From an uncultured Aquimarina sp. (lineage in GTDB: Bacteria; Bacteroidota; Bacteroidia; Flavobacteriales; Flavobacteriaceae): a stretch of 64,000 nt of DNA. Within the stretch, counting starts at the first letter, position 1; each line of letters begins with the position of its first letter. This document shows positions 16,431 to 28,844 of the stretch, in pieces. Under the pieces are notes generated by a model, which did no database searches, was not told the origin of the DNA, and saw nothing but the letters and a program-made list of their open reading frames with translations. The translations under genes and the position numbers were made by a program. The stretch is from contig NZ_CANMED010000002.1 of assembly GCF_947496855.1 (NCBI RefSeq), positions 62,001 to 126,000 on the forward strand, in the 5' to 3' direction.

Positions 16431-16456
16431 ATCGATAACATACTAAACTAAAAGTA

Positions 16457-16494
16457 AAACGAGGTTAAAATCAATTAACCTCGTTTCTATTTTT
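16457..16494. terminator. Terminator after DUF2911 gene
   Basis: AAACGAGGTTAA (16457-16468) pairs perfectly with TTAACCTCGTTT (16475-16486), 6-nt loop, followed by a T-rich tail. It can also stop leftward transcripts from the peptide gene at 16545. Confidence 0.9.
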
Positions 16495-16544
16495 TTAATT
16501 TACCTTTTGACTAAAAAGGTATAATTATTTCACTGAAATAATAA

Positions 16545-16643
16545 CTATCTGTGAATAGCGTTACTAGACGCTCCTGGTAATTCTTTAAGAAAGTCCATGA
16601 CAATCCTAAAAGTTAATCTGAATTTAGTGTAAAATAGCCCCAT
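16545..16643 (-). CDS. Small peptide, 32 aa, copy 1 of a three-member family
   Basis: ATG at 16643, TAG ending at 16545, 32 codons. It aligns without gaps with two other 32-codon ORFs at 16907-17005 and 17461-17559. Shared residues in all three are M1, F4, Y5, F18, K20, E21, L22, P23, A25, S26, S27 and I30. The tail is FLKELPGASSNAIHR. Compared with copy 2, 10 of the 11 differing codons in this tail are synonymous, which shows selection on the peptide. It starts MGLFYT, has a basic middle (KFRLTFR) and no signal peptide or double-glycine leader. A weak -7 box (TATATTG, 16668-16674) lies upstream. Function unknown. Confidence 0.72.
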   Translation of the reverse strand: MGLFYTKFRLTFRIVMDFLKELPGASSNAIHR

Positions 16644-16667
16644 AATATTTCCAATTTAATTGTTTAC

Positions 16668-16674
16668 AATATAA
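16668..16674 (-). promoter_or_regulatory. Possible -7 box of peptide copy 1
   Basis: Reads TATATTG on the minus strand, one T short of the TAnnTTTG consensus, 25 bp upstream of the ATG, with TTTTG about 20 nt further upstream. Confidence 0.35.
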
Positions 16675-16906
16675 CACCTAAAAGATTCAAAATCAACATT
16701 TTTAACAAAATACGTAAGTACTTTTAGACGTAGAGTAATGTTTGATCGATTAAAGACGTGAATTTCATTTATACTAGTAAAATCAATTCCTACATTTTCA
16801 TCGTGTTTTCTAGCAAACGATATAAATTTATTTTTGACTAAACGACAACATTACTATTCTTTCCCTTTCTAAGTTAGTCACTTTAAATTAACATCTACCA
16901 ATTTGA

Positions 16907-17005
16907 TTACCTATGGATAGCATTACTACTAGCAGAAGGCAATTCCTTCAAAAAATTCATTAATGCTTTAGCATCTATTGTCATCATACCGTAAAATAAT
17001 TTCAT
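16907..17005 (-). CDS. Small peptide, 32 aa, copy 2 of a three-member family
   Basis: ATG at 17005, TAA ending at 16907, 32 codons. It begins MKLFYG and ends FLKELPSASSNAIHR, identical to copy 1 in 14 of the last 15 residues while most third codon positions differ. A perfect Bacteroidota -7 box, TATATTTG, lies at 17039-17032, 27 nt upstream of the start, giving a leader of about 20 nt. Three AGACATAA repeats (17092, 17113, 17121) lie about 53 bp upstream of that box. The residues form a likely amphipathic helix in the middle followed by a small-residue turn. No known family recognised. Confidence 0.78.
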   Translation of the reverse strand: MKLFYGMMTIDAKALMNFLKELPSASSNAIHR

Positions 17006-17031
17006 AATTGTTTGATTTTTAATTTGTTATG

Positions 17032-17039
17032 CAAATATA
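17032..17039 (-). promoter_or_regulatory. -7 box of peptide copy 2
   Basis: TATATTTG on the minus strand, a perfect TAnnTTTG, 27 nt before the ATG at 17005. Confidence 0.65.
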
Positions 17040-17381
17040 AATCGCTATTTGATATGATTAAAAAAAATTAACATATAGAAATTCAAATTTTAGACATAAA
17101 ATCATCTATATCAGACATAAAGACATAATCAGATATCTTTATGTTAAATTATGAAGAATTATCCTACAGGCAAGAATACGAAACAAGGGGATTTATACCC
17201 CTGTTTTTTAAGCTATTAAGAGTCAACATTATTCCTAAAGAAAGATATTAGATTAAAACATACCATTTGTGAACGCCAAATACACGTCATAAACATTAGA
17301 AGATTTTGAATTTTGAGAATTTATCAATTATTCCTAAATAACAGAGTAATTAAAAAAATGTAGAATAGTAAAGTACATATA

Positions 17382-17412
17382 AAAAGGGATTATCTGAATG
17401 ATAATCCCTTTT
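17382..17412. terminator. Terminator downstream of peptide copy 3
   Basis: AAAAGGGATTATC (17382-17394) and GATAATCCCTTTT (17400-17412) form a perfect 13-bp stem with a 5-nt loop. It lies 49 bp past the stop of copy 3 and separates it from copies 1 and 2, so the copies look like separate transcription units. Confidence 0.85.
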
Positions 17413-17460
17413 ACAATTTTATGAAATACATAGAATTTGGGTTTTATGTATTATAAATAA

Positions 17461-17559
17461 TTAATGTCTTATTACATGGCTTGAAGCAGAAGGCAATTCC
17501 TTAATAAAGCTTATAACAGACTTAAATTGCGAACTTAAAATAGTGTAAAAATTTCTCAT
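17461..17559 (-). CDS. Small peptide, 32 aa, copy 3 of a three-member family
   Basis: ATG at 17559, TAA ending at 17461, again exactly 32 codons. Starts MRNFYT and ends FIKELPSASSHVIRH, the most diverged copy but with the same length and the same invariant positions as copies 1 and 2. It has its own perfect -7 box TATATTTG (17620-17613) 54 nt upstream and a strong terminator downstream. It lies about 280 bp downstream of the end of queE, which is on the same strand. Unknown function; candidates are a secreted signal, a bacteriocin or a small membrane-active peptide, none supported beyond size and repetition. Confidence 0.72.
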   Translation of the reverse strand: MRNFYTILSSQFKSVISFIKELPSASSHVIRH

Positions 17560-17612
17560 AGTATCTTGTTTTAGATTATTTACATAAAATTAACAACTAC
17601 TTTAATGATTAT

Positions 17613-17620
17613 CAAATATA
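17613..17620 (-). promoter_or_regulatory. -7 box of peptide copy 3
   Basis: TATATTTG on the minus strand, identical to the box of copy 2, 54 nt upstream of the ATG at 17559. Confidence 0.6.
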
Positions 17621-17838
17621 TATGTTAAAAAATATTTATTTTTGACAAAAAAACGCGTAACATCGATTAAAAACTACTAACGAAAAAAGACCAATCAAAT
17701 CTAGTAGTCTTATTCTTACTTTTAATAACATGGAACAAAGGAATATTCCCCTTATTTCTATGGCTAAACCGTAAATTACTGAAAATCAATTTTTTAATTG
17801 TCTTAAAAAACTAAAAAACCGTAATCAAAATATGTTAA

Positions 17839-27479: not shown

Positions 27480-28844
27480 ATGAATTATCAAGAAATCATT
27501 AATACTCAAAATGCTTTTTATAACACAAACGCTACTAAAGACATACCGTTTAGAGTTAAAGAATTAAAGCGTTTAAAAAGTATTTTACAGAAAAACGAGG
27601 GACTACTATATCAGGCTATTTATCGTGATTTTAAAAAATCGAAATACGAAACCTACACTACAGAATTAGCTATCATTTATCATGAGATTGATCTTGCATT
27701 GGTAAATATCAAGAAATGGTCTAAGAAGAAAAGCGTTTCTACTGGATTAGCCAACCTTCCAGCAAGAAGTTATATTATGCCAGAACCCTTTGGGACTGTT
27801 TTAGTAATGGGCGCTTGGAATTATCCTTATCAACTATCAATAGTTCCAGCGATAGCTGCAATAGCTGCGGGTTGTACAGTTATTCTTAAACCTAGTGAGA
27901 TCCCATCAAATTCTTCTTCTGTAATGGCTAAGATTATAAGTGAAAATTTTGACCCTAAGTTTTTTAAAGTAATTGAAGGAGGTGTAAAAGAGACTACAGA
28001 ATTATTAAAGGTCAAATTTGATAAAATATTCTTTACCGGAAGTATTCAAGTAGGTAAAATCATCTATCAGGCCGCTGCCAAACATCTTACTCCAGTTACG
28101 TTGGAATTAGGTGGTAAAAGTCCTGCTATCGTTACTAAAGATGTTAATATTGATATGACTGCCAAACGTTTAGTTTGGGCTAAATTTTTAAACACTGGTC
28201 AGACCTGCATTGCTCCAGACTATATCATGGTCGAGTCTTCGGTACAAGATGAACTGTTACTAGCTATTAAAAAACACATAGAAAGTGCTGATTATAAAAT
28301 AGAGAATCAAAATTATACTCAAATTGTAAATCAAAAAAACTTTGAACGCTTGCAAAATTTTATTGAAAAAGATAAAATATACTATGGAGGCCACTGCGAT
28401 GCTGATAATAGAATCATATCCCCTACAGTTATGAGTGGAGTTACATTCTCGGACAAAGTAATGCAAGAAGAAATTTTTGGCCCTATTCTCCCTGTTTTAT
28501 CCTTTGACAACATAGATAAAGCCATTGCCGATATTAAAACATTATCAAAACCTTTATCCTGTTATATTTTCACTAAAAACAAAGTAGTAAAAAACAAAAT
28601 CTTAAATGAAATATCATTTGGTGGTGGAGCAGTAAACGATGCCGTTATGCATTTTATGGAACAAAACCTCCCATTTGGAGGTGTTGGAGATAGCGGTATG
28701 GGTAATTACCATGGTAAAGCAGGATTCGAAACATTCTCTCACTACAAAAGTATTTTGCAAAAATCCTTTTTAATAGAATTAAATCTTAAATACTCGCCTT
28801 ATACAAGTTCTAAGTTAAAATGGTTGAAGAGGCTTATTGGGTAA
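27480..28844 (+). CDS. Aldehyde dehydrogenase (NAD(P)-dependent, class 3-like)
   Basis: 454 residues, short ALDH of the class 3/fatty aldehyde type. MGAWNYPYQLSIVPAIAAIA is the cofactor fold, LELGGKSPAI carries the general base Glu, NTGQTCIAPDY the catalytic Cys, and EEIFGPILPVL is the second family motif. The C-terminal LNLKYSPYTSSKLKWLKRL may associate with membranes. The last 240 bp of the gene, including the stop and the last codons of a convergent kmo, are repeated at 32770-33009. Likely oxidises aliphatic aldehydes (inference). Confidence 0.93.
   Translation: MNYQEIINTQNAFYNTNATKDIPFRVKELKRLKSILQKNEGLLYQAIYRDFKKSKYETYTTELAIIYHEIDLALVNIKKWSKKKSVSTGLANLPARSYIMPEPFGTVLVMGAWNYPYQLSIVPAIAAIAAGCTVILKPSEIPSNSSSVMAKIISENFDPKFFKVIEGGVKETTELLKVKFDKIFFTGSIQVGKIIYQAAAKHLTPVTLELGGKSPAIVTKDVNIDMTAKRLVWAKFLNTGQTCIAPDYIMVESSVQDELLLAIKKHIESADYKIENQNYTQIVNQKNFERLQNFIEKDKIYYGGHCDADNRIISPTVMSGVTFSDKVMQEEIFGPILPVLSFDNIDKAIADIKTLSKPLSCYIFTKNKVVKNKILNEISFGGGAVNDAVMHFMEQNLPFGGVGDSGMGNYHGKAGFETFSHYKSILQKSFLIELNLKYSPYTSSKLKWLKRLIG

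Follow-up and report, generated by a model that had tools for sequence, protein, structure and literature searches.

Three 32-codon genes in an intergenic array of an uncultured Aquimarina sp. belong to a peptide family that is spread through the genome, through the genus, and thinly through the Flavobacteriaceae. Its members are stand-alone microproteins, mostly of about 32 residues, in which a cationic amphipathic helix is followed by a tail that is fixed at the free C-terminus. The paralogues occupy unrelated intergenic sites, singly or in tandem, and stand behind different promoters.

Three related 32-codon ORFs lie in a region without long genes

The window, a stretch of 64,000 nucleotides that was analysed as a whole, contains a segment without any long gene (16431-17838), flanked by a convergent DUF2911 gene and by a radical SAM gene that we take to be QueE-like. 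A sequence-only reading of this DNA had claimed that the segment hides three minus-strand ORFs of 32 codons, which align without gaps around 12 invariant residues, and that 11 of the last 15 codons differ between copies 1 and 2, 10 of them silently. All three ORFs were found where they had been placed, the alignment with its 12 invariant residues was reproduced, and a recount of the codons returned the same figures:

16545..16643, minus strand, copy 1, 32 codons plus stop, MGLFYTKFRLTFRIVMDFLKELPGASSNAIHR; the most conserved member, with 41 copies of the copy-1 type examined
16907..17005, minus strand, copy 2, 32 codons plus stop, MKLFYGMMTIDAKALMNFLKELPSASSNAIHR
17461..17559, minus strand, copy 3, 32 codons plus stop, MRNFYTILSSQFKSVISFIKELPSASSHVIRH

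Copy 3 ends in SSHVIRH rather than SSNAIHR. Seventeen in-frame ATGs in the window sit exactly 32 codons before a stop, and against this background the pairwise identities among copies 1-3 are 19, 15, and 14. The best eight pairs of 32-codon frames listed include four others with 6 identities and one unrelated pair, the minus-strand stretches at 28712 and 32873, which are alike at 27/32 residues and are perhaps part of a larger duplicated gene.

The peptides are under selection and carry initiation signals

The excess of silent change between copies 1 and 2 had been read as a sign of peptide-level selection, and the wider comparison bears this out. In simple pairwise counts without tree correction, silent change dominates in the copy-1 type (pN 0.054, pS 0.496; 37 distinct coding sequences), in copy-2-like genes (0.164 and 0.626; 41 sequences), and in the others (0.288 and 0.598; 51 sequences). 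Upstream of the start, adenine occupies positions -11, -12, and -13 in fractions of 0.88, 0.84, and 0.78 of 188 distinct members, whereas the control set, 2070 ORFs with 28-36 codons, gives 0.33-0.38, and the first ATGs of 461 long ORFs give 0.48-0.52. These upstream adenines match the positive determinants of initiation, at -3, -6, -12, and -13, that are given for ribosome profiling of F. johnsoniae in PMC6847099.

Codons 1-5 of copy 1 (16629-16643, ATGGGGCTATTTTAC) are almost fixed across 37 distinct copy-1 genes, at silent sites too, suggesting that a constraint at the RNA or DNA level may overlap the start. The same near-fixation would be expected if the copies were conserved noncoding DNA or RNA elements whose ORFs had arisen by chance, a reading that we find scarcely credible: elsewhere silent changes dominate, the frame, the stop position, and the initiation context are kept across genera, and there is no Rfam match at gathering scores. 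Judged by these features, the three tiny genes look like real small peptides that are translated and selected.

The family extends through the genome and the genus

A profile built from copies 1-3 recovered ten members from the source genome at E < 0.01, namely the three array copies, one pair, and five singles. Among 52 genomes of the genus, all but one (51) have some match at E up to 1, and in 44 the best E is < 1e-10. Three of the remaining eight carry a divergent member (E 4e-7 to 2e-6) and one a readable member at E 0.06; four have no member at E up to 0.1, two of them being < 90% complete. The array position itself was located across genomes with the DUF2911 neighbour as query, which gave 80 loci. 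One to six copies are present in 40/42 Aquimarina or Aquimarina-like loci (two of the 40 being Bacteroidia or Flavobacteriaceae assemblies), the other two loci reaching a contig edge just past DUF2911. The remaining 38 loci have no copy; they are from Dokdonia or from further records that are for the most part flavobacterial, and include short contigs. Homologues of the tail that the sequence-only reading had singled out are thus abundant in related genomes by either route. One array copy (L099 8067) has no start codon and is probably decaying; together with the four genus genomes without a member, this suggests that the family is dispensable in places.

Outside Aquimarina the family thins out. 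Of 249 sampled Flavobacteriaceae genomes, 31 match at E up to 0.01, and 23 of these, including two Aquimarina, show a clean match over the full tail. The matches in the other eight (G073, G075, G094, G120, G202, G203, G205, G268) were not accepted as members because of internal stops or short partial matches, and hits in G352, G531, and G570 from a search of the order were rejected on the same grounds. Earlier profile searches, each at its own stated cut-off, gave matches in at least 6 genomes among 299 of the family (including two Aquimarina), at least 5 of 395 genomes of the order, and at least 3 of 296 of the phylum; 5 of 99 relatives of G052 and, with a broader profile, at least 18 of 239 family genomes have one. 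A class-wide search yielded at least 2 of 330 genomes, both Flavobacteriaceae, the second of which carries a tandem triple and two singles. The wide searches scored the best 20-33 first-look candidates per genome, making these counts lower bounds, and their genome samples overlap, such that the hits are not frequencies. MKTLKEFLNKKLSKWNEKLVEYAKASSYAIHR and MKKILHYVQVRLERWYPILEEYGRASSYAIHR are examples of divergent members from outside the genus. At four non-Aquimarina loci (L150, L278, L280, L282) the peptide adjoins the same gene, presumably that of ribosomal protein L21.

An amphipathic helix ends in a conserved free C-terminus

The tail typically reads [AG]-[SCA]-x-[YNH]-A-[ILM]-[HRNQ]-[RKH]-stop (ASSYAIHR-like). 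Across 163 loci (1.77 Mb), matches at E up to 0.01 run to the last codon before the stop in 227/229 cases with the broadest profile, and in 195/201 and 222/228 cases with two others. By the same threshold the reversed DNA of these loci gave 0 matches with all three profiles, a control that speaks to specificity alone, as the loci were chosen for holding matches and include the sequences from which the profiles were built. The genus-search matches listed, to E of about 2e-9, lie in open frames of at most 91 codons, giving no sign of the tail as a tag on larger proteins. A length of 32 was found for 140/160 distinct Aquimarina peptides, counted with a script that favoured a 32-giving start where one existed, and for 19 of 35 other peptides, three of the 35 being divergent members of the genus.

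Residues 3-21 of 142 distinct 32-mers are amphipathic, with a mean moment of 0.42 versus 0.23 in shuffled sequences, a peak at 100 degrees, and a mean Eisenberg hydrophobicity of 0.23; the mean charge of these peptides is +3.5. The 35 others have a helical moment of 0.45 versus 0.25 shuffled and a charge of +5.4. AlphaFold predicts a single helix over residues 2-31 that runs through the tail (pLDDT 77, pTM 0.33), with the least confidence over the tail. By eye, no leader was seen on the peptides. Cationic, amphipathic, and by that inspection leaderless, they share the traits of phenol-soluble modulins and leaderless bacteriocins, which are short, leaderless, and amphipathic and occur in several tandem copies; the C-terminus is conserved here rather than the helix, and the genes lie at unlinked sites behind different promoters, with no exporter gene seen beside the copies. 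SpoVM of Bacillus, a short amphipathic helix of sporulation, resembles the peptides in being a short helix that would be expected on a membrane surface, although it belongs to another phylum and we claim no sequence relationship.

The tail is conserved more than the helix. Residues F18, L22, P23, A25, and A29 are near-invariant in Aquimarina, and in array members the first three are invariant and A25 and A29 nearly so, whereas in the N-terminal helix, by reading, the hydrophobic pattern is better preserved than the individual residues. This set of fixed positions resembles a specific protein contact and, with the net charge of about +3.5, would suit a soluble inhibitor or adaptor that binds a ribosome, protease, or kinase without any membrane step. 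Retention of the hydrophobic pattern over the residues is instead what lipid contact would predict, and we regard a purely soluble role as rather unlikely.

Array and non-array members stand behind different promoters

The following elements surround the array copies:

17032..17039, minus strand, -7 box TATATTTG of copy 2, 26 nt before the ATG
17613..17620, minus strand, -7 box TATATTTG of copy 3, 53 nt before the ATG
17088..17120, minus strand, direct repeat TTATGTCT...TTATGTCTAAAA, 21 bp apart, upstream of copy 2
16722..16752, minus strand, related repeat TAATCGATCAAA...CTACGTCTAAAA upstream of copy 1
17639..17668, minus strand, similar, weaker element (AATCGAT...TTTTGTCAAAAA) upstream of copy 3, by reading
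16456..16487, minus strand, terminator-like hairpin after copy 1, present on both strands and shared with the convergent DUF2911 gene
17181..17206, minus strand, terminator-like hairpin between copies 3 and 2
17382..17412, minus strand, hairpin about 50 nt downstream of copy 3, placed on the plus strand only by one scan and on the minus strand by another

The -7 box, of the Bacteroidota type, that was said to be common to copies 2 and 3 was found upstream of both, and copy 1 of the source genome has a degenerate one only. Across genomes, the TANNTTTG -7 element precedes 40/40 copy-2-type and 28/41 copy-1-type genes, with about 4 expected in each from mononucleotide shuffles, and 16/55 other array copies (5.4 expected) and 15/58 non-array copies (3.2 expected) by the same measure. 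In the copy-1 and copy-2 types, the median distance from box to ATG is 26 nt and the leader is short and A-rich. About 90 nt before the ATG, TTATRTCTAAAA occurs with at most 1 mismatch in 32/41 copy-1 genes (0.7 expected) and 30/40 copy-2 genes (0.3 expected), preceded at both copies, by reading, by a related half 21 bp away; it is found at 3/55 other array copies and 2/58 non-array copies. The idea that each copy has its own promoter is clearly borne out by the orthologue groups of copies 1 and 2, but less so by copy 1 of the source genome with its degenerate box. A regulon built on the direct repeat was considered and set aside: the source genome has 243 matches with at most 3 mismatches versus 293 for a backwards control, and with no such enrichment a regulator of this site is unsupported outside the array.

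Between 16000 and 18000 there are 7 terminator-like hairpins (on both strands, partly overlapping) versus 0.5 expected. The proposed bounding of the cluster by hairpins agrees with this excess and with the hairpin between copies 3 and 2; the 250 nt that follow copy 2 show no terminator-like hairpin, however, leaving a separate copy-2 transcript unsupported. Hairpins occur within 220 nt downstream of 59/138 array members and 28/58 others, versus 0 and 1 in shuffles; the 138 array hits include a start-less L094 hit far from the array (13.6 bits) that is probably due to chance.

Members outside the array are preceded by other signals. The published sigma-54 consensus is TGGCACN5-7TTGCT (PMC12316311). 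Sigma-54-type sites with at least 9/11 positions were found at 13/76 distinct non-array members (9/54 mostly Aquimarina, 4/22 from outside), versus 0.16 expected in shuffles and about 0.5 by the rate in window tiles (6/984), and at 0/112 array members. RpoN is present in 18/20 genomes checked. Proximity of rpoN to a peptide gene, seen in G005 and G007, was discarded as a lead as it was not seen in G035. Both a TANNTTTG box within 90 nt and a sigma-54-type site are lacking at 33/54 distinct non-array members, which leaves most promoters of this set unassigned. Seven loci (L143, L163, L167, L174, L176, L178, L184) have variants of GGGTGTTTTCCCCCATTGCG just upstream of the -7 region, another promoter type, and in an MNHFY-like subgroup (L155, L159, L160, L162, L164, L168, L179, L180, L186) the gene is preceded by repeated TTATTAACA-like boxes.

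These upstream regions bear on whether the genes could encode toxins of type I toxin-antitoxin systems. Ldr, Ibs, and Fst are type I toxins encoded by small multi-copy ORFs in intergenic arrays, and the genes described here are likewise small, multi-copy, in part tandem, and separated by long intergenic gaps. Their leader in the copy-1 and copy-2 types is short and A-rich (the 26 nt median given above) rather than long and structured, some members have sigma-54-type promoters, and the peptides are amphipathic rather than membrane-spanning, their Eisenberg value being too low for a typical membrane span. We consider a toxin role very improbable.

The gene neighbourhood holds no constant partner

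Orthologues of the peptide genes hold fixed intergenic positions. Where it is visible, the downstream neighbour is convergent at 36/41 non-array Aquimarina loci and runs in the same direction at 5, at a distance of 179-868 nt; outside the genus, the peptide precedes a same-direction gene by 33 and 68 nt in L151 and L152. A leader peptide of transcription attenuation was rejected on this arrangement, given the convergent neighbours and an array that is itself convergent with DUF2911.

When the genes within 5 kb at 50 loci were clustered, no partner gene recurred at most sites. The clusters included synteny groups, presumably with rplU-like, lipoprotein, and methyltransferase genes, and some big, widespread families, each seen at two to four unrelated sites: sigma factors, L-PSP, peptidases, two-component proteins, and EamA-like permeases. 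Related small lipoprotein-like genes adjoin the peptide in three genomes (L274:5071-6657, L277:6162-6698, and L284:3141-3638), and the one tested had no Pfam match. Beside one copy, a 90-codon ORF (L183:2436-2708) looks by eye like a natural-product precursor with a double-glycine leader. At the same 50 loci, by clustering and by eye with some neighbours annotated, no dedicated exporter or immunity gene was obvious beside the copies, though an exporter may be encoded farther away, and no modification enzyme recurred by eye among 106 nearest neighbours listed, few of them annotated.

The sequence-only reading had likened the peptides to pheromones, bacteriocins, or small membrane-active peptides. 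Cationic amphipathic helices fit the membrane-active part of that idea, while no dedicated exporter, immunity, or modification gene stood out beside the copies by clustering and by eye. Secreted, leaderless, bacteriocin- or surfactant-like peptides, with the tail serving export or self-recognition, would account for the absence of a leader by eye, for the charge and amphipathicity, and for tandem, multi-copy genes; a permease that we take to be EamA-like lies near 5 loci, 3 of them in one synteny group. None of the dedicated genes expected of such a system stands out in the neighbourhoods, as far as they are annotated, and the tail is the more conserved part; moreover, antagonistic peptides tend to diversify, whereas copy 1 is under strong purifying selection. 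We judge this account unlikely, though deserving of some weight.

A related possibility is an inter- or intracellular signal: a receptor would read the last eight residues after their release from the helix, which would act as their carrier. Phr, PapR, and SHP are Gram-positive precursors of C-terminal pheromones, and the likeness lies in a short ORF whose functional part would be its last residues, in keeping with a fixed part that is the free C-terminus. Six sites have two-component genes near the copy (L146, L149, L151, L170, L185, and L296), and at L146 and L298 a cyclic-nucleotide-binding gene is nearby; these cases were picked by eye from the 50 loci, without a base rate. Unlike those precursors, the peptides have no visible signal sequence and no constant adjoining receptor gene, no single receptor family being present at most sites, and the tail is nearly alike across genera, which argues against strain specificity. 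A released signal therefore seems to us doubtful, more so than a soluble adaptor.

The family is nearly absent from databases

The claim that the peptides belong to no known family holds, with no significant match in Pfam, NCBIfam, PADLOC, or the PDB. PADLOC, Pfam, and NCBIfam matched 0/34 members at E up to 0.01, members of the first and third alignments gave a few chance-level database hits (best 0.027), and the Aquimarina profile reached a best E of 1.4 against the PDB. One of 34 members had a weak PHROGs match, to phrog_37960, on residues 1-29 of a lysine-rich peptide and not covering the tail. A tblastn search of a phage collection with two members returned none at E up to 1, a plasmid search with one member returned none, and viral contigs held no instance of one exact degenerate motif. 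Among 5.8 billion predicted proteins, three query peptides retrieved 2, 4, and 1 proteins in a search that needs shared 5-residue words; two of these seven hits are named, as 'hypothetical protein', one of the two being from Gilvibacter. This scarcity is probably due to ORFs that lie near the length limits of gene callers. Among the papers listed for small peptides and small ORFs of Aquimarina and for small proteins of Bacteroidetes and Flavobacteriaceae, none dealt with the family, nor did any listed for the letters of the tail, a search that was swamped by unrelated words.

A possible shared partner for many inputs

A constant free C-terminus on variable helices, expressed from different promoters at unlinked sites, suggests many inputs and one partner. 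We tentatively favour a model, in our estimate somewhat short of an even chance, in which different signals express interchangeable peptides that act on one shared partner recognising the C-terminus. Each regulatory input would express one peptide, through sigma-54 with an enhancer-binding protein, through the primary sigma factor helped by an activator that binds the 21-bp direct repeats, or through others. The helix would rest against a hydrophobic surface such as the membrane, while the constant tail would bind the candidate partner and change its activity, such that copies would differ in timing and helix face and not in target. Secreted or membrane-disrupting peptides could have such an amphipathic helix too, which counts against this model. 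So do the degenerate box of copy 1, the lack of a terminator-like hairpin after copy 2 and the hairpins at only 59/138 array members, the many non-array members with neither promoter signal, the direct repeat that is not enriched in the genome, the signs that the family is dispensable in places, and the AlphaFold helix that runs on through the tail. A bolder version, in which a flavobacterial signalling network is written in a free C-terminus, with many promoters, interchangeable carrier helices, one conserved receptor, and about ten inputs in Aquimarina, is speculative and on balance improbable.

Taken together, the analysis describes an overlooked family with about ten genes per Aquimarina genome that is hardly represented among predicted proteins. 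As its C-terminus is constant on varied helices and behind varied promoters, a shared target is directly testable, and the family invites work on the regulatory targets of small proteins in Bacteroidota, also of those behind sigma-54-type promoters.
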